Shown here: positions 8,107-47,933 of the stretch, piece after piece
Layout: each line of letters starts with the position of its first letter
Numbering within the stretch: the first letter of the stretch is position 1
NCBI GenBank assembly: GCA_938039675.1
Contig: CALHUI010000007.1
Span: forward strand, 124,001-188,000
Origin: an uncultured Cytophagales bacterium
Lineage (GTDB): Bacteria; Bacteroidota; Bacteroidia; Cytophagales; Thermoflexibacteraceae
Direction of reading: 5' to 3'
DNA length: 64,000 bases
Made by a program: the position numbers and the translations under genes
Notes under the pieces: model-generated
Database searches by the model: none
What the model was told of the DNA's origin: nothing
What the model saw: the letters and a program-made list of their open reading frames with translations, nothing else

Positions 8107-11100
8107 TCATGCTTGTACAATTTTACTGCCTTTTCGCTCTTTGATGACCTCAATTTTGACGGGAATCCGCTCTTTGAGTTCACTTACATGCGAAATAATG
8201 CCGACAAGTCGTTGGCTGCCTTCCAATTCGGCAAGGGTTCGGATGGCTAAATCCAGCGTTTCGCTGTCTAGCATACCGAAACCCTCGTCTATGAACATGG
8301 ACTCTAAGGCAATGCCACCGCTTCGCGAAGTAATCACATCTGTGAGCCCCAGTGCCAGTGCTAACGAAGTAAAGAAAGTTTCTCCGCCGGAGAGATTTTC
8401 TACAGGGCGCATAGTGCCGGAGTATTGGTCAAAAACTGCCAGCCGCATTCCGTCTTTGCCGCGCCCAACGGTTTCATCGTTCAGCAAGGTATAGCGCCCG
8501 CCCGAAAGTTGTTCCAATCGCAAATTGGCTTTGGCAAGTACTTCATTAAAATAGAAACGAAGCACGAAGTGTTGTAGGCGAAGTTTATCCGCATTGTCGC
8601 CCGAGGCAAGTGCAAAAAGTTCCCGTAAAGGCTTAACAACGGCTTCTTGGTCGGTAATTTGTTGTCGTAGGGCAGTCAGTTGCTGTTGTAAATCCTGCAA
8701 ACGCTTGATATTGTTGCCAATTTCGCCTGACTTACTCTGATAATTGCGCAGCGTTTGCGCAGCGGCTTGGGCTTTCTGCGCAGTGGTATCTAAGTCGGGT
8801 TTTTGCTTTCCTGCTACTTTTTTTTGGGCTTCGTTGAACGTTGTTTGCAGGGTCAGTTCCGTTTTTTCCCAATCTTCAATCTTTTGGGCAAGGTCTTTTA
8901 ATGCCTCTTCGGAAAACTCTTTGACCCAAGCAGCAACCTCATTCATGGCGGTAAATCCTTTGGCCAAGCAGGCCTGCTTGGTTCGTTCACGCAATTCGTT
9001 GAGTTGCTGCTCTTGCTCATTGAGTGCTATTTGCTGTTGTTCGGCTGTGATTTGCAGGCGTGCATATTTTTCGCGGGCTTCGTTGAGTGCCTTTTCTAAG
9101 GTTTGCTGCTTTTTTTCCCATTGCGCATATTGGTTAGCCAATGTAGCAACCTGTTTTTCTGCGGTTGCCGCATCGGATATACCCGCAGGAAGCCGCTCTG
9201 TAACGGCTTGCCAATTGCTTTGCAAACCACTCAAAGCAAGCTCATGCTTACGCACCTCTTCTTCCACAGCTTTTGCTTTTGCTGTTTTATCCTGCTGCTG
9301 CTGTTTGAGTTGCTCGGTTGCTTGTTGCAATACTTGCCACTGCTTTTGCGCTGCTTCGGCATTTTTGCGCTGTCGGGCGGCCTGTTGCCACTGCTGCTCC
9401 AACTCTTCCTGCGAAGGGATGCTGTCGGTAAAACTTGCTGCCAATATTTGGCAAGTGTTCTCCTGCATTGCCTGCTCGGTCTTTGCGTCTTGGTAAGCAG
9501 TAAGCGCCTCCTGTTCGGCTTTTTCGGCTTTTTCTTTGGCTTGGTGGGCTTTTTCTAATTCAGTATCATCCACACGCTTATCGGCAGGCTGTGCGGGATT
9601 CGGGTGTTCGGTTGCCCCGCAAACGGGGCAGGGCTGTGTCGGTTGCAGCGTTTCTGCCAATAAGGCTGCCTGACTGCTGCGCCACAATCGCTCGGTTTGG
9701 CGGTAGTGTTGATGGGCTTTTTCTGCCGCTTTTGCCGCCAAGTCATACTTCGCCGCCATCTTGGCAGTAGCTTTTGCGGCTTCCTCTACTGCTGCCTGCG
9801 CTGCCGTCAGTTTCTGCAAAGTCTCCCGAAGTGTGTTCAGGTCTTTTTCTTCGCGCTCGTACAATGCCAATTGCCGGGCGGTTTGGTGCAGTTGGGTCAG
9901 TTGCTCATCATTGGCAGCAATTTTCTCCTCTATGCTTGTAATTTCTTCTTGCAATACCTGTAAATTGTCCGACCAGGTAGCCAATTGCTGCCGCGTCGCC
10001 GCAATTTGTCGCCGCAATTCCGCAGCTTTGGCAAAATCGGGCAACTTCTCTCGCAGGCTTTGTGCGGCTTCCCGCGCCCGTTCGGCAGCATTTTTTTGCT
10101 CTGCATGATTAGCCAAATCCTGCGCGGTTTGCTGCATGTGCTGCTGTGCTTGCTGCTTTTCCTTTATGTTTTTTTTCTGTGCTTGCTGCTTTTCCTCTAT
10201 GTTTTTTTTCAATTCAGAGACACGGTCAAACAGCGGCTTTAAGTCGCGTACATTTTCCAAACGGGCTTTTTGCTGCTTCAACTGCTCGTAGGTTTCTCGG
10301 CTTGCCAAATGCGCATGGAGTTGCTGCCGTATTTTTTCAAAATGCTGAAAATCATCGTTTAAAGCACGTTCGGTAACTAGCTGCTGCTGAGCTGTATTAT
10401 TGGCTGTCTCCAATTCCTGCAAATAGTCGGTAAGTTTTTGCGCCTCCTCGTGCAAACTTTGCAGGCGGTTTTCTATGCTCTCGCCTTCGGACAATTGCCC
10501 GTTGGCAAGTAATGTTTTCTCGGCGGTTTGCAGGTTTTGGAGTTCCCCTGATGCAGTGTTCAATCGCTCTTGCAGGCGCTTCTGAAACTCTGTAAATCGT
10601 TCGGTGCGAAAAATTGCACTCAGAATTTTAGCCTTATCATCGCCGTTTGCCCGCAAAAAACGCTGAAATGCGCCCTGTGGCAGCACCACAATCTGCAAGA
10701 ACTGCTCTTTGGTAAAGTGCAAAATGCGACTAACCTCGTTTTTAATCTCATCTTTCTTGGTCAGTATTTTTTCATCGGGCAACGGGTTGCCGTTTTCATC
10801 GGAGCGATAAAATTGGCGTTCGTCGTCAAAGCCTTCGCTGCGCTTTTTCTTTCGTTTTTCGTAATACGCTACGTAGAAATTGCCGCGCTGCCTGAAACAA
10901 AATTTTACGATAGTAGGCTGATTATCAGAGGCAAAGTCTGAACGCATTTGTTGCTCTTTGCGGTCGCCTGTGGTATCGCCAAACAGCGCACAACTCATGG
11001 CATCAAAGATGGTGGTTTTGCCTGCACCCGTCGGGCCGTGCAAAAGGAACAGGTTGTTGCCCGAAAACTTGCCGAAATCAATGCGTTGATGGTCTATATA

Positions 11101-11139
11101 CGGGCCAAATGCCTGTATTTCAAGAAAGTGCGGTCTCAT
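8107..11139 (-). CDS. sbcC: Exonuclease SbcCD subunit C (SMC-like ATPase)
   Basis: The 1010 aa length suits SbcC. Walker A is GPTGAGKT at 35-42. Two long coiled coils (about 180-480 and 530-830) flank a zinc hook, CPVCG, with Cys504 and Cys507. The C-terminal lobe holds the ABC signature NLSGGETFF and a Walker B/D-loop FIDEGFGMLD. With SbcD it forms an ATP-driven nuclease that opens and degrades hairpin and blocked DNA ends. The start ATG overlaps the sbcD stop by 4 bp (ATGA), which implies translational coupling. The first coiled coil carries a 33-bp tandem duplication (10144-10209). The antisense strand has long open frames, which are a by-product of the Gln/Ala-rich coiled coil. Confidence 0.95.
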   Translation of the reverse strand: MRPHFLEIQAFGPYIDHQRIDFGKFSGNNLFLLHGPTGAGKTTIFDAMSCALFGDTTGDRKEQQMRSDFASDNQPTIVKFCFRQRGNFYVAYYEKRKKKRSEGFDDERQFYRSDENGNPLPDEKILTKKDEIKNEVSRILHFTKEQFLQIVVLPQGAFQRFLRANGDDKAKILSAIFRTERFTEFQKRLQERLNTASGELQNLQTAEKTLLANGQLSEGESIENRLQSLHEEAQKLTDYLQELETANNTAQQQLVTERALNDDFQHFEKIRQQLHAHLASRETYEQLKQQKARLENVRDLKPLFDRVSELKKNIEEKQQAQKKNIKEKQQAQQHMQQTAQDLANHAEQKNAAERAREAAQSLREKLPDFAKAAELRRQIAATRQQLATWSDNLQVLQEEITSIEEKIAANDEQLTQLHQTARQLALYEREEKDLNTLRETLQKLTAAQAAVEEAAKATAKMAAKYDLAAKAAEKAHQHYRQTERLWRSSQAALLAETLQPTQPCPVCGATEHPNPAQPADKRVDDTELEKAHQAKEKAEKAEQEALTAYQDAKTEQAMQENTCQILAASFTDSIPSQEELEQQWQQAARQRKNAEAAQKQWQVLQQATEQLKQQQQDKTAKAKAVEEEVRKHELALSGLQSNWQAVTERLPAGISDAATAEKQVATLANQYAQWEKKQQTLEKALNEAREKYARLQITAEQQQIALNEQEQQLNELRERTKQACLAKGFTAMNEVAAWVKEFSEEALKDLAQKIEDWEKTELTLQTTFNEAQKKVAGKQKPDLDTTAQKAQAAAQTLRNYQSKSGEIGNNIKRLQDLQQQLTALRQQITDQEAVVKPLRELFALASGDNADKLRLQHFVLRFYFNEVLAKANLRLEQLSGGRYTLLNDETVGRGKDGMRLAVFDQYSGTMRPVENLSGGETFFTSLALALGLTDVITSRSGGIALESMFIDEGFGMLDSETLDLAIRTLAELEGSQRLVGIISHVSELKERIPVKIEVIKERKGSKIVQA
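10144..10209. repeat. 33-bp tandem duplication inside sbcC
   Basis: Two adjacent copies, 10144-10176 and 10177-10209, differ at one position (CCTTTATG versus CCTCTATG). Translated on the minus strand they give NIEEKQQAQKK followed by NIKEKQQAQKK-like sequence. The unit is 11 codons, so frame is kept, and 11 residues is the hendecad period tolerated by coiled coils. Confidence 0.9.
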
Positions 11140-12287
11140 GCTTCGGGTTGAATTTCGCGGATAATTTGGGTGATAATTTCTTCGTGTACTATGTCCAAAG
11201 CGGGTAAATAGTGCAGAAAAAATTCGCGGGCTATCTCCCTGTCATCCATTTTAGAGAGTTGTTCGGTAGAAAGGCGGCGTTCCGATGTGTTGCGGTAAGC
11301 GTTGGGTTGCCGCAGCTCGAGCGCACAGGTATATTGCCGTCGCACAATTTCCATGGCGTTAATAACGGGTTCTTCGTTGAGCAGCGTTACTTCCAGCAAG
11401 TCATCCTGATGAACAGACGACTGATTATCAGCCAATTGAAATACTCCATCGCATACGTAGCCCTGAACGCGGCGGATGTCCTGTTTGTGCGCAATCGGAA
11501 TTTTTTCGGTTTGCACATTGCCTTCCCCGTCCATTTCTACCATCAAAAATACTTTTTGGTGGTCGGCTTCGGAAAAGGAATATTTGAGCAGTGAGCCGGA
11601 ATAGCGCACTCGCCCGTCCATGAATGACTGCGGACGGTGCAAGTGCCCTTGTGCGGTGTAGTGGAACGGCGTAAAGATTTCGGCAGGCACAACGGAAGCC
11701 CCACCAACGCTCAGCAGCACCCGTTCCGATTCACAACCCTCGCCGCCACTGATAAAAGCATGACCAATAGCCACGTGCCGCCCCTTTGCCGACATGCCAT
11801 TCACAATATTTTTTACCACATGGCGCATGATGGTCTCGTGGCTGTCAAAAAAAGCATTCTTATTTTCGGGCAGGTGCAAGTCGGTTGGCTTGGTGTAGGG
11901 TATGGGGTAGAAATATACCTCACCGTGTGCATCGTGCAGTACGACAGGTTTGACAACACCGGGCATACCGAAAATATGCAAGCCCTGCCGCTGTAAAATT
12001 CCGTTGAAGTAGTCAATGCGCTCGGCGCTGTCGTGATTGCCTGCAATGGCTATTACGGGCACTTTCAGCCCCAGCACAATTTCCGACATCACCTCGTCAA
12101 ACAACTCCACCGCACGGGCAGGCGGAAGCGTGCGGTCGTAAATATCGCCTGCAATAAGCAACACGTCGGGTTTTTCGCTGCGGATAAGGTTTGTAAGCTG
12201 TTGAAGCGCGTATTGCTGTCCGTCCAGCAAGTCAAAGTTTTTTAAAGATTTACCCAGATGCCAGTCGGCTGTATGTAGAATACGCAT
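11136..12287 (-). CDS. sbcD: Exonuclease SbcCD subunit D (Mre11-like nuclease)
   Basis: The 383 aa protein carries the calcineurin-like phosphoesterase motifs in order: RILHTADWHLGK at the N-terminus, LLIAGDIYDR, IAIAGNHDSAERI, IGHAF and TAQGHLHRPQ. These bind two Mn ions and cleave DNA 3'-5' and at hairpins when joined to SbcC. I chose ATG 12287 because the family begins MRILHTADWH; the frame is open upstream to 12311. A -7 box TAAATTTG lies at 12326-12319, allowing a leader of about 25 nt from 12287. It is the first gene of the sbcDC pair. Confidence 0.95.
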   Translation of the reverse strand: MRILHTADWHLGKSLKNFDLLDGQQYALQQLTNLIRSEKPDVLLIAGDIYDRTLPPARAVELFDEVMSEIVLGLKVPVIAIAGNHDSAERIDYFNGILQRQGLHIFGMPGVVKPVVLHDAHGEVYFYPIPYTKPTDLHLPENKNAFFDSHETIMRHVVKNIVNGMSAKGRHVAIGHAFISGGEGCESERVLLSVGGASVVPAEIFTPFHYTAQGHLHRPQSFMDGRVRYSGSLLKYSFSEADHQKVFLMVEMDGEGNVQTEKIPIAHKQDIRRVQGYVCDGVFQLADNQSSVHQDDLLEVTLLNEEPVINAMEIVRRQYTCALELRQPNAYRNTSERRLSTEQLSKMDDREIAREFFLHYLPALDIVHEEIITQIIREIQPEA

Positions 12288-12318
12288 AAAAAATTGTAAT
12301 TTTTTTACCAATTTACGC

Positions 12319-16870: not shown

Positions 16871-17356
16871 TTATTGCAACAACTTGGCTTGCTTGATGTA
16901 ATATTCGCCCTGCTTAACCCAACGATAGCGTTCTTGCCCTTTCAATACACGAACTTCGGCAGCAACGAGCTTAAACTCACCCATCGTCGTGTCATTTACC
17001 TTGATATCAGGATCCCATTGCAGTTTGAAATCTACATTGAGCGAATCGCCGTTTAAACGATCCTGCATCAGAACACCCAATACGGTCATATCCTCTCCTA
17101 CGGGATAATTTACCGTATCGTAAGCCAGTGGATAAGTTATGATTGGGAACTCGCCCCCGTCCATTACTTCAAAACCTGCCTTGCCCTGTTTTACAATCAA
17201 ATCGGTAATCATACCGTCTATCAGGCGAACCATGCGCTTGTTATTGGTCAGTTCTGCTTTTACTTTGGCCTTCATTTCGGCGCGGCGTTTTTCTTCTGCG
17301 CTCTCACAAGCCCATGCCAGCATAGCAATAGCTATGAGCAGATAGATTTTTTTCAT
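16871..17356 (-). CDS. Putative lipoprotein, uncharacterised paralogue of its neighbour
   Basis: A 161 aa protein with lipoprotein signal MKKIYLLIAIAMLAWACES (Cys17). A charged helix (about 20-40, EEKRRAEMKAKVKAELTNNK) leads into a domain sharing the WD..DTTMGEFKL pattern with the protein encoded 43 bp downstream. No enzymatic motif is seen. A TAACTTTG box at 17427-17420 probably drives both genes. Function unknown. Confidence 0.65.
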   Translation of the reverse strand: MKKIYLLIAIAMLAWACESAEEKRRAEMKAKVKAELTNNKRMVRLIDGMITDLIVKQGKAGFEVMDGGEFPIITYPLAYDTVNYPVGEDMTVLGVLMQDRLNGDSLNVDFKLQWDPDIKVNDTTMGEFKLVAAEVRVLKGQERYRWVKQGEYYIKQAKLLQ

Positions 17357-17419
17357 TGCGAAAAAACTTTTTAGGTTGAATTTTTATCAAAAATGAGCCT
17401 GCCTTTCCAAACAGGCGCG

Positions 17420-17427
17420 CAAAGTTA
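17420..17427 (-). promoter_or_regulatory. Candidate -7 box for the lipoprotein pair
   Basis: TAACTTTG on the minus strand, 64 bp before the ATG at 17356. No -33 TTTG at exact spacing. Confidence 0.45.
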
Positions 17428-17523
17428 GAGTCTTAGCAACTGAGCAGCAAGATTTTAACAATATTCAACACATGAAATTTTATGCTGCTGCATTGCACCT
17501 TCTCACATAAAAACAGTCGAGTA

Positions 17524-21472: not shown

Positions 21473-21575
21473 GAGTTAGGTGGCCAATCCGAATATAGAG
21501 ATAAGGTTGCGAATGTATTTTTTATTCATCTGTTCATAGCGAACGGTTTGCAAACCATTCGGTAGGATGGATGGG

Positions 21576-28357: not shown

Positions 28358-28397
28358 TAAAAAACCTGACAGCAATCAACATCTGTCAGGTTTTTTT
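28358..28397. terminator. Bidirectional terminator between symporter gene and mdh
   Basis: AAAAAACCTGACAG (to 28372) and CTGTCAGGTTTTTTT (28383-28397) form a 14-bp stem with A and T tracts on both sides, serving the converging genes at 28339 and 28435. Confidence 0.9.
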
Positions 28398-30711: not shown

Positions 30712-31239
30712 ATGAATTTCTTGAAACGTTTCTTTGTTCAACGACGACTGCGGCAGACGCTTCAAAACAAGAAGTGCCGCTTTGCGCCTTTATTCTCAGA
30801 AGCCAAACAAATAGGCATCCTGTTCGATGCCGAAAATCAGGCTATAGAGAAGCCGTTAGCTGCCTTTATCCGCCAATTGGAAAAAGAAGGCAAAAGCGTT
30901 TCATCGCTTACCTACTTTGACAGCGAGCGACAAGCCGCTTTCCAATTTCTATATGAGGTATTTACCGGCAACGATATTGACTGGCTGGGAAATATCAAGT
31001 CAGCAAAAGCCAACAAGTTCATGGAAAAGAAGTTTGACTACCTGTTTTGTTTCAGTGCACAGCCCATACCAGTAATAGACCTGCTGCTGGCCAACAGCGA
31101 GGCAAAATGCAGAATCGGGTTTTATCAGGAAGGCAGAGAGGATTTCTACGAACTTATGCTCATTCCTGACAAAGGCGCAAAAGAAGAGCAAATGATACTC
31201 TTAACTTTGGAATACACTAAAAATATTTGTCAAAACTAA
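30712..31239 (+). CDS. DUF6913 family protein
   Basis: About 175 aa from ATG 30712 (MNFLKRFFVQRRLRQ); the frame is open back to an ATG at 30640. The segment IGILFDAENQAIEKPLAAFIRQLEKEGKSV, then YFDSERQ, and FDYLFCFSAQPIPVIDLLLANSEAKCRIG follows a pattern I associate with DUF6913, a Bacteroidota family usually encoded beside dapA. The function is unknown; an alpha/beta Rossmann-like fold is plausible. It ends 8 bp before the dapA ATG, so the two are almost certainly co-expressed, which hints at a link to the diaminopimelate pathway or wall synthesis. Confidence 0.7.
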   Translation: MNFLKRFFVQRRLRQTLQNKKCRFAPLFSEAKQIGILFDAENQAIEKPLAAFIRQLEKEGKSVSSLTYFDSERQAAFQFLYEVFTGNDIDWLGNIKSAKANKFMEKKFDYLFCFSAQPIPVIDLLLANSEAKCRIGFYQEGREDFYELMLIPDKGAKEEQMILLTLEYTKNICQN

Positions 31240-31247
31240 AACCCAAG

Positions 31248-32159
31248 ATGACTAACGTAACAACAGTTTTGTATGGCACAGGGGTAGCCCTTGTAACCCC
31301 TTTTGATGCAAACGGACAGATTGATTTTGCCGCTTTGCACAAGTTGCTGGCGTTTACTGCCGAAAGCGTAGATTACTGGGTAGTGAATGGTACTACCGGA
31401 GAATCCCCCGTCCTTTCCAAGGAAGAACGAAAGAAACTGTTGGCGTTTGTCAAGGGAAACAATCCTAAGAAACTGCCTATTGTTTGGGGTATGGGCGGCA
31501 ACCATACGGAGGAACTCGTTGCACAAATCAAAGAAACCGATTTGAGCGGCGTAGCTGCCGTTCTTTCCGTATCGCCTTACTACAACAAACCATCGCAAGA
31601 GGGCATTTTCCGCCACTATATGGCCGTTGCCGATGCCTGCCCCGTGCCTGTTTTGCTCTACAACGTACCCGGCAGAACCGGCTCTAATATATCGGGAGCA
31701 ACTACCGTGCGGCTGGCTGCGCACCCGAACATTATCGGTACAAAAGATGCTTCGGGCGATTTTGAACAATATACTTACATTGTCAAAAGCGCACCCGAAG
31801 GCTTTTTGGTCATTTCAGGAGATGATATGCTCACCGTGCCGCTCATTGCCATTGGTGGCAAAGGAGTTATTTCCGTATTGGCCAATGCTTTCCCTACATT
31901 GTTTGCACAAATGACGCGCGCAGCTCTGCAAGGCAACTTTACCGAGGCAGCACAAATTATGTACAGCTTTGCCGATATTAACGGCCTGCTCTACAAAGAA
32001 GGCAATCCGACAGGCATCAAATATGTGCTGAGCCGTTTGGGCATTTGCAAACCGCATCTGCGGCTGCCCAACGTGCCTCCTTCGGAAGAACTCAGCAAAA
32101 AACTGGATGCGGCGCTTGCTGCTATAACTGCCGACACCCGACAGTTATTAGGCACATAA
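31248..32159 (+). CDS. dapA: 4-hydroxy-tetrahydrodipicolinate synthase
   Basis: About 303 aa TIM-barrel of the DHDPS/NAL family. GTGVALVTPFDANGQID is the N-terminus, VNGTTGESPVLSKEE carries the TTGES pyruvate-binding motif, VLLYNVPGRTGSNI has the catalytic Tyr and Arg region, and IGTKDASGDFEQY has the Schiff-base Lys. GDDMLTVPLIAIGGKGVIS closes the site. It condenses pyruvate with aspartate semialdehyde in the lysine/diaminopimelate pathway, downstream of lysC (58956). ATG 31248 fits the family; an alternative TTG at 31227 would overlap the previous gene. Confidence 0.95.
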   Translation: MTNVTTVLYGTGVALVTPFDANGQIDFAALHKLLAFTAESVDYWVVNGTTGESPVLSKEERKKLLAFVKGNNPKKLPIVWGMGGNHTEELVAQIKETDLSGVAAVLSVSPYYNKPSQEGIFRHYMAVADACPVPVLLYNVPGRTGSNISGATTVRLAAHPNIIGTKDASGDFEQYTYIVKSAPEGFLVISGDDMLTVPLIAIGGKGVISVLANAFPTLFAQMTRAALQGNFTEAAQIMYSFADINGLLYKEGNPTGIKYVLSRLGICKPHLRLPNVPPSEELSKKLDAALAAITADTRQLLGT

Positions 32160-32504: not shown

Positions 32505-32905
32505 ATGATTTCAATCGTAGATTACCCGACATTCAAAATCATCTTTGACGAGGAGAGCCGAACGCTCATCGTCATAGACACCACATCTGCTGAAGTGCAA
32601 GACGATGATATCCGCAATATTCGAGCATGATTTTCTCAATCATGCTCGAATATAAGCCCGTTAATTGCTTGATTGACAACAAATTGCGCAAATATGTTTT
32701 TAGCGTTGAGATGCAGGAATGGGTAGCCAATACACTTTTACAGGCCTGTTTGGCAGTAGATTTGAAAAAGTTTGCCGTTGTGCAGCCCGAAGAGTTGGTG
32801 GCAAGCCTTTCCAACGAACAAGTGGCCGATGAAGCAGGCAAAAATCCGGTACAAGTCGGTTTTTTCCACACCATGGAACAAGCCAAAAACCAGTTAGGTA
32901 TTTAA
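32505..32905 (+). pseudogene. STAS/SpoIIAA-like protein gene split by a frameshift
   Basis: The first frame (32505-32630, 41 aa) reads MISIVDYPTFKIIFDEESR, TLIVIDTTSAEVQ and stops at TGA 32628. The second (ATG 32627 to 32905, 92 aa) reads IMLEYKPVNCLIDNK, MQEWVANTLLQ, KKFAVVQPEELVA and ends QLGI. Joined, they give about 133 aa with the order seen in a common small Bacteroidota family of STAS-like single-domain proteins. A shift of one base reconnects them at the expected spacing. Stop and restart overlap as ATGA, so coupled translation of two halves cannot be excluded. The break lies inside a perfect inverted repeat (32617-32653). The next gene follows after 10 bp. Confidence 0.65.
32617..32653. 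repeat. Perfect 16-bp inverted repeat at the frameshift
   Basis: ATATTCGAGCATGATT (32617-32632) and AATCATGCTCGAATAT (32638-32653) are exact reverse complements with loop TTCTC. The stop codon of the first frame and the start of the second lie in the left arm. Confidence 0.95.
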
Positions 32906-32915
32906 TCAAAGTCCT

Positions 32916-33884
32916 ATGAAATTTCGCATAGCAGCATGGCTGGGGCTTTCTTGGCAGGAAATGAAAGGCTTCGTGCTGACGCTTTTGGCAATGACACTTG
33001 TGTTAGCACTGCCTTATGTTATTGCCTCCGGACAGGAAAACCCTGCTTACGATAAAGCAGCGGATGAAGCGGTGCTGGACAGCCTGCTAATGGTAATGCA
33101 GGTTGCCAAGCCAATAATGCCGGAAGAAGAACGCGAAACTGCTCTCAGCGAAGCCGTTGCCGCAAATGCAATCAAGCCTTTCAACCCCAATGAGTTAGAC
33201 GTTGTGGCATGGGTAAATCTTGGCCTGAAACCCTACCTTGCCGAACGCGCAGTAAAATATCGCGCAAAAGTTGGTCCGTTTCGTGCCAAGCGTGATTTGC
33301 TCAAAGTTTACGGCTTCCCCGAGTGGCTCTACCAGCGATTAGAACCATTCATTCTGTTGCCTGAAACCGCTCCGGCAGAAACGGCAAAAACCGACCGACC
33401 GTTGGAAAAAACGGTTGAACCTGCCGCAGACCATCATGCACCTGCTGCCTATGGCTTCAAAGAAAGCCGTCCTCTGCGCAAGCAGCCTCAAAAATTTGAC
33501 CTCAATACGGCAGATACAACCCAACTGATGGCGCTGAAAGGGATTGGGGCAACTATCGCAGGGCGCATCATCAAATTTCGCGATGCGCTGGGCGGCTTTC
33601 ACAGCCTTGAGCAACTTAACGAAGTATATGCCATTACGCCCGAAGCACTGGCATCATTGGCTACCTACACCGAACTTTCGCCCGACACCCACAAAAAAAT
33701 AGCCATTAACACCGCCGATGTAGAAACACTCAAAAAACACCCGTACATCGACTCTAAACTTGCCGAGGTTTTGGTAAACTATCGCAAACAGCACGGCGCT
33801 TATAAAAACGCATCCGACCTGCAAAAAATCCGCATCCTGACACCCGAAAAGTTGGGAAAAATATTGCCCTATTTGGAGTTTTAA
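32916..33884 (+). CDS. ComEA-like protein with three helix-hairpin-helix domains
   Basis: A 322 aa protein with one N-terminal membrane anchor (about 18-38, GFVLTLLAMTLVLALPYVIA). Three HhH-type units follow: about 85-150 (FNPNELDVVAWVNLGL, YRAKVGPFRAKRDLLKVYG), 192-250 (FDLNTADTTQLMALKGIG, FRDALGGFHSLEQLNEVYAI) and 264-320 (INTADVETLKKHPYI, YRKQHGAYKNASDLQKIRIL). The NTAD...L..L.GIG pattern is that of ComEA, the DNA-binding protein of competence pili, so a role in DNA binding at the outer face of the inner membrane is likely. Whether it takes part in DNA uptake is not shown here; no com/pil genes are adjacent. Confidence 0.8.
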   Translation: MKFRIAAWLGLSWQEMKGFVLTLLAMTLVLALPYVIASGQENPAYDKAADEAVLDSLLMVMQVAKPIMPEEERETALSEAVAANAIKPFNPNELDVVAWVNLGLKPYLAERAVKYRAKVGPFRAKRDLLKVYGFPEWLYQRLEPFILLPETAPAETAKTDRPLEKTVEPAADHHAPAAYGFKESRPLRKQPQKFDLNTADTTQLMALKGIGATIAGRIIKFRDALGGFHSLEQLNEVYAITPEALASLATYTELSPDTHKKIAINTADVETLKKHPYIDSKLAEVLVNYRKQHGAYKNASDLQKIRILTPEKLGKILPYLEF

Positions 33885-34698: not shown

Positions 34699-34735
34699 AA
34701 CCTGTCAGGTAATAATATGCCTGACAGGTTTTTTT
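34699..34735 (+). terminator. Rho-independent terminator after sodA
   Basis: AACCTGTCAGG (34699-34709) pairs with CCTGACAGGTT (34720-34730), followed by T7. Confidence 0.92.
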
Positions 34736-47900: not shown

Positions 47901-47933
47901 AAAAGTCGTCTTGAGCACTTCAAGACGACTTTT
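47901..47933 (-). terminator. Terminator of the nqr operon
   Basis: AAAAGTCGTCTTGA (47901-47914) and TCAAGACGACTTTT (47920-47933) are a perfect 14-bp stem with loop GCACT; a T-rich tract follows on the minus strand. It marks the end of the operon right after nqrE. Confidence 0.92.

Follow-up and report, generated by a model that had tools for sequence, protein, structure and literature searches.

A SpoIIAA/STAS-like gene in the genome of an uncultured Cytophagales bacterium is broken by a change of reading frame that falls within a perfect inverted repeat, which raises the question of how the hairpin and the broken frame came about. The locus was analyzed within a 64,000-nt stretch of this genome (hereafter, the window), for which a first-pass annotation made from the sequence alone had proposed a quasipalindrome (template-switch) mutation. 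In all probability, one short-range inter-strand template switch, which took place after the split from the closest of the available genus genomes (G002), made the hairpin and broke the gene.

Hairpin and Frame Break

The inverted repeat at 32617-32653 of the window sequence has 16-nt arms that are 100% complementary and a 5-nt spacer, and its position at the frame break agrees with the first-pass annotation. The first frame runs from an ATG at 32505 to a TGA at 32628-32630 (41 aa). Its stop and the start of the 3′ piece overlap as ATGA at 32627-32630, inside the left arm, as had also been described. The second start codon (ATG 32627) is held inside the RNA hairpin, which is predicted to be strong (-22.7 kcal/mol), and no slippery heptamer was seen by eye at the ATGA overlap. 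Predicted folding of the DNA gave -15.6 kcal/mol for the window hairpin vs. -0.4 kcal/mol for its counterpart in G002. The coordinates of these and the neighboring features are listed in Table 1.

Table 1. Features of the hairpin locus and its surroundings, and orthologs of the broken gene in the genus.
Feature	Position in window	Strand	Size	Remarks
SbcC	8110-11139	-		Above-threshold Pfam match
SbcD	11139-12311	-		Above-threshold Pfam match
dapA	31227-32159	+		Upstream neighbor; synteny anchor in G001, G002, and G003
5′ piece of broken SpoIIAA/STAS-like gene	32505-32630	+	41 aa	Alignable to the first part of the intact G002 ortholog
Inverted repeat, left arm	32617-32632	+		Largely copied from the right arm as its reverse complement
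Copied segment	32621-32639	+		Four-point model; one of several equal-scoring placements
3′ piece of SpoIIAA/STAS-like gene	32627-32905	+	92 aa	Open frame from ATG 32627 to a TAA ending at 32905
Inverted repeat, spacer (TTCTC)	32633-32637	+	5 nt	Exact reverse complement of the G002 spacer
Inverted repeat, right arm	32638-32653	+		Inferred template of the copied segment; collinear with G002, 3 of 16 positions differ
ComEA-type helix-hairpin-helix repeat gene	32916-33884	+		Downstream neighbor; synteny anchor in G002 and G001, not G003
G002 ortholog			148 aa (first TTG) or 133 aa (ATG corresponding to the start codon of the 5′ piece)	dapA upstream, helix-hairpin-helix gene downstream
G001 ortholog			147 aa	Neighbors as in G002
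G003 ortholog			151 aa	dapA upstream; downstream gene differs

The suggestion that such a hairpin is rare by chance holds against random sequence: perfect repeats with arms longer than 13 nt (loop 3-12) were absent from 25 first-order Markov shuffles of the window, and arms of at least 16 nt have an analytic expectation of 1.6e-4 per window. It holds less well against real DNA, which is richer in such structures. The 411-kb contig contains 16 perfect repeats with arms of at least 13 nt (loop 0-12), and four with arms of at least 16 nt, the hairpin at the frame break among them.

Other hairpins were encountered in this comparison. Those at 28359-28396 and 34699-34730 of the window are terminator-like, share a common CCTGACAG/CTGTCAGG core, and have counterparts in G002; they represent a recurrent hairpin sequence. 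At the place on its contig C1 that matches window 21537-21573, G002 carries approximately 0.5 kb of extra DNA with a perfect 52-bp palindrome that has no spacer.

The Gene in the Genus

The genus sample consisted of four genomes, namely, the window's own (G000), G001, G002, and G003. The gene at this locus is a single open frame in all three of the others. A split gene sharing the perfect palindrome was looked for in these relatives and found in none of the three, which leaves the reading as a template-switch mutation standing. The first-pass annotation had also expected relatives to carry an intact gene with an imperfect version of the hairpin; the intact gene was found in each of them, whereas the imperfect hairpin was absent from G002, in which the corresponding site has neither an inverted repeat nor a stable fold.

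The intact G002 ortholog matches the Pfam SpoIIAA-like profile PF11964 with 26.4 bits (gathering cut-off, 25). Neither half of the window gene alone matches any Pfam profile; the 5′ piece was searched, and also aligned to the G002 ortholog, without its first Met.

Footprint of the Event

G002 is the closest genome and the sole relative that can be aligned base by base, and the pre-event sequence is therefore represented by a proxy. The window aligns with G002 in seven blocks with identities of 90.6 to 95.8%, and substitutions amount to 5.9% over 62,715 aligned bases of the window. Approximately 500 bases of the window at 16902-17440 are much more divergent from G002 than their surroundings.

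At the hairpin, the right arm is collinear with G002, whereas the left arm and the spacer are not. These are instead a reverse-complement copy of the G002 spacer and right arm, with an exact 14-nt reverse-complement run that spans the spacer and the inner arms. All five spacer positions have changed, and the window spacer matches the G002 spacer, GAGAA, exactly when reverse-complemented. Where the right arm differs from G002, at three positions, the left arm still pairs with it; of these positions, the innermost alone falls within every shown placement of the copied segment. At least eight placements score equally, with starts at 32618 or 32621, ends from 32637 to 32640, and one or two mismatches each. 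The product is one base shorter than the G002 arrangement, in line with the length change of about a base that had been anticipated, and the second half is therefore out of frame. Just downstream, divergence is raised to 10 differences in 48 nt, a density that is reached by about 2% of such stretches.

The direction of change was resolved by outgroup comparison, using the single frames in G001, G002, and G003 and the amino acids encoded at the spacer position, which are Glu-Lys in G001 and G002 but not in G003. The G002 orientation of the spacer was taken as ancestral because both G001 and G002 encode Glu-Lys there.

Statistical Support for a Template Switch

A nearby reverse-complement copy explained the site far better than linear changes did, with the four-point model surpassing the linear alignment by 38.3 log units. 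This gain exceeds the switch penalty of 29.7 log units, an arbitrary and harsh value. The fairly divergent flanks might suggest that independent point substitutions and a deletion produced the palindrome by coincidence. However, the linear model is worse by the above margin before any switch penalty is charged, arms of this length did not arise in the shuffled sequences, and the spacer is inverted exactly, so that such a coincidence can hardly be credited.

The gain was compared with that of other places on one contig pair (C7 of G000 vs. C1 of G002; 378,241 aligned bases, rates refitted). Of the 263 dense-divergence clusters found, 258 were tested without a switch penalty, and the hairpin site ranked first among them, with 37.2. 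The cluster in second place reached 30.6 (25.5 in its own reverse-only control), and the best reverse-without-complement control reached 28.8, which places the hairpin site 6.6 log units above the next reverse-complement cluster and 8.4 above the best control. Dense clusters can give gains in the twenties by chance, and the inverted spacer and the perfect arms therefore count as further support. The second-best cluster, G000:C7:219287 (L074), contains 17 differences in 36 nt, and its gain lies just above the penalty; it is possibly a further switch, or merely a very divergent patch.

Scans for reverse-complement runs gave a similar picture. In the window, where runs of at least 13 nt were considered, one of seven had at least four linear differences in the window lineage, and this was the hairpin site. 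At the same thresholds, two of seven runs were found in the G002 lineage (the hairpin site and a hairpin at 47901), and the reverse-only control gave 0 of 17 in each lineage. The 14-bp hairpin in question (47901-47933) was rejected as a candidate second event; it is terminator-like by eye, and one arm base plus the loop changed relative to G002. Across the contig, where runs of at least 12 nt were considered, 4 of 82 had at least three differences in the G000 lineage, the hairpin site having the most (seven), vs. 2 of 149 in the control, with at most four differences. The corresponding counts in the G002 lineage were 5 of 83 vs. 2 of 149; here, the hairpin site had five differences, a poorly aligned place had eight, as did a different place in the reverse-only control.

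Spacer inversion was surveyed in 76 repeats with arms of at least 8 nt, spacers of 2-10 nt, and aligned spacers of the same length. Ten of these had two or more spacer differences, and exact inversion was found in two of the ten, namely, the hairpin site and a TTT/AAA site elsewhere. The latter, L077:9927-9951 (G000:C7:277927-277951), is a perfect inverted repeat of 11 bp, located where a gene named coaE-like by eye ends; its spacer reads TTT, vs. AAA in G002, and is a possible flip. It was rejected as further evidence for switching, since a change to the complement alone explains it equally well.

Probable Mechanism of Hairpin Formation

The event would have accompanied replication or repair synthesis of the DNA after the lineage of the window genome had diverged from G002; the switch scores fit both processes alike. 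Read from left to right, synthesis would have left the original template at the left arm, continued in reverse on the complementary strand across the right arm and then the spacer, and resumed on the original template immediately to the right of the spacer. In this way, the sequence of the right arm and spacer, in reverse-complement form, would have taken the place of the former left arm and spacer. The outcome would be a perfect hairpin of 16 bp whose spacer is inverted, with a net loss of one base that puts the second half out of frame. The order of the switch points on G002 is 1-3-4-2. Part of the template lay ahead of the growing end for either fork direction, and the nascent strand therefore could not template itself; under the four-point model, the opposite strand would be the natural template. 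The observations at this site were taken to indicate one event, acting between strands, with loss of the function of the gene.

Spacer or loop inversion is tied to inter-strand switching in the excerpted text of two studies (PMC8794818; PMC8604942), and at this locus the spacer is exactly the reverse complement of the presumed ancestral one. An intra-strand quasipalindrome correction, in which the nascent strand folded on an imperfect hairpin and perfected it, the spacer being inverted separately or not by switching, is a textbook bacterial mechanism according to the excerpted text of PMC7202029. Perfect hairpins can also flip their spacers, as 9 of 10 spacer inversions in the excerpted yeast study occurred in repeats that were already perfect (PMC8604942). 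However, fold-back correction starts from an imperfect precursor and keeps the orientation of the spacer, and neither applies with G002 as the proxy ancestor, which has no inverted repeat or stable fold at this site, while all five spacer positions are exactly inverted in the window. Correction by fold-back is thus unlikely. A two-step history, in which the arms were copied first and the spacer was flipped later, is possible.

Since the spacer is inverted, an inter-strand switch is favored over fold-back, and since G002 lacks a stable imperfect hairpin, the hairpin would, on this evidence, essentially have been made new rather than perfected from an imperfect one. The template-switch origin put forward in the first-pass annotation is therefore well supported by the relatives, whereas the imperfect precursor that it presupposed was not found in G002, and the inverted spacer speaks against the fold-back correction.

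The hairpin is known from one genome of the species, and chimeric DNA is reported to arise in strand-displacement amplification (PMC9484634); in vitro strand switching or an error of sequencing or assembly might thus have put a false hairpin in the consensus. Against such an artefact, the footprint is that of a local copy with two jumps, and it lies within a contig of 411 kb in an assembly rated as 100% complete and 0.05% contaminated. Chimeras formed in vitro are usually long single inverted joins and seldom dominate a consensus. An artefact is accordingly highly improbable.

The window also encodes SbcCD, as had been noticed earlier, with Pfam support for both subunits (Table 1). No link between sbcCD, which lies 20 kb from the hairpin, and the event was found in the analysis.

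Relation to Known Template-Switch Mutations

The hairpin adds a clean case to a class of mutation that is already known, and the event in the REG2 gene of Saccharomyces cerevisiae is nearly identical in form. In REG2, as described in the excerpted text of PMC8604942, arms of 5 bp were extended to a perfect 16-bp repeat, with inversion of the 5-nt spacer, in one event; the two cases share the 16-bp arms, the inverted 5-nt spacer, and the location within a coding gene. The switch in REG2 produced seven substitutions and five amino-acid replacements, whereas that in the window shortened the gene by one base and broke its frame, and REG2 represents a difference between yeast strains (PMC8604942), whereas the present case lies between bacterial species. 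Four-point switch mutations, as presented in excerpts of PMC7954356 and PMC8794818, likewise involve a nearby reverse-complement copy, new hairpins, and an inferable order of switch points. The former study treats great apes and the latter microRNA and rRNA genes, including loop inversions in bacterial rRNA, whereas the case described here concerns a bacterial protein gene.

In bacteria, laboratory cases were already known from Escherichia coli, namely, the thyA hotspot and lacZ reporters (PMC7202029, excerpted text). They resemble the present case in that repeats are perfected during bacterial synthesis and lengths change such that the frame is altered. However, the E. coli cases involve fold-back on an existing imperfect hairpin (PMC7202029), whereas no imperfect hairpin is seen in G002 and the spacer of the window hairpin is inverted. 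A comparison between bacterial species that shows this kind of switch in a protein gene was not found among the literature matches listed, from which subscription papers were mostly absent. At this locus, a natural bacterial switch can be followed cleanly, base by base, between related species, including its direction, the inversion of the spacer, and the breakage of the gene. The case suggests that a hairpin can form where no quasipalindromic precursor is evident, and that single switch events may underlie some of the apparent frameshift pseudogenes and clusters of substitutions in bacteria.

Fate of the Broken Gene

Because the second half has lost its frame, a young pseudogene is the most likely state of the SpoIIAA/STAS-like gene. 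Relative to G002, pairwise dN/dS was 0.049/0.196 in the 5′ part and 0.040/0.363 in the 3′ part, vs. 0.032/0.189 in dapA. These values suit a gene that broke very recently as well as one that still functions, and they carry no information on the age of the event.

A functional split gene, which would be compatible with a template-switch origin, was considered as an alternative. The ATGA overlap makes coupled co-translation of the two halves possible; these might then assemble, with the hairpin tuning reinitiation. The 3′ frame is still open and has a low dN/dS, and the predicted RNA hairpin is strong, all of which would suit such an arrangement. On the other hand, none of the three other genus genomes carries the two-frame arrangement, a low dN/dS is equally expected from a recent break, and neither half alone has a Pfam match, which makes a working split gene decidedly unlikely. 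A broader reading holds that inter-strand switching recurs in the genus, flipping spacers and making intragenic hairpins, and that the broken gene survives as co-translated halves that restart in the hairpin; as a whole, this is very unlikely. The young pseudogene thus remains the preferred reading.

The 92-aa frame was searched against 59 genomes (its own included) and gave matches in 22. A genome-contig search, from which records of its own or near-identical genomes were possibly omitted, returned 39 pattern matches, none of which was a relative. A search with dapA gave 23 homologs with identities of 43-54%, whose names point to Bacteroidota. The frame has 12 matches in its own genome, itself included, and up to 30 in a relative (E of 0.01 or better). 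The gene family is therefore large, and the loss of one copy may be tolerated.
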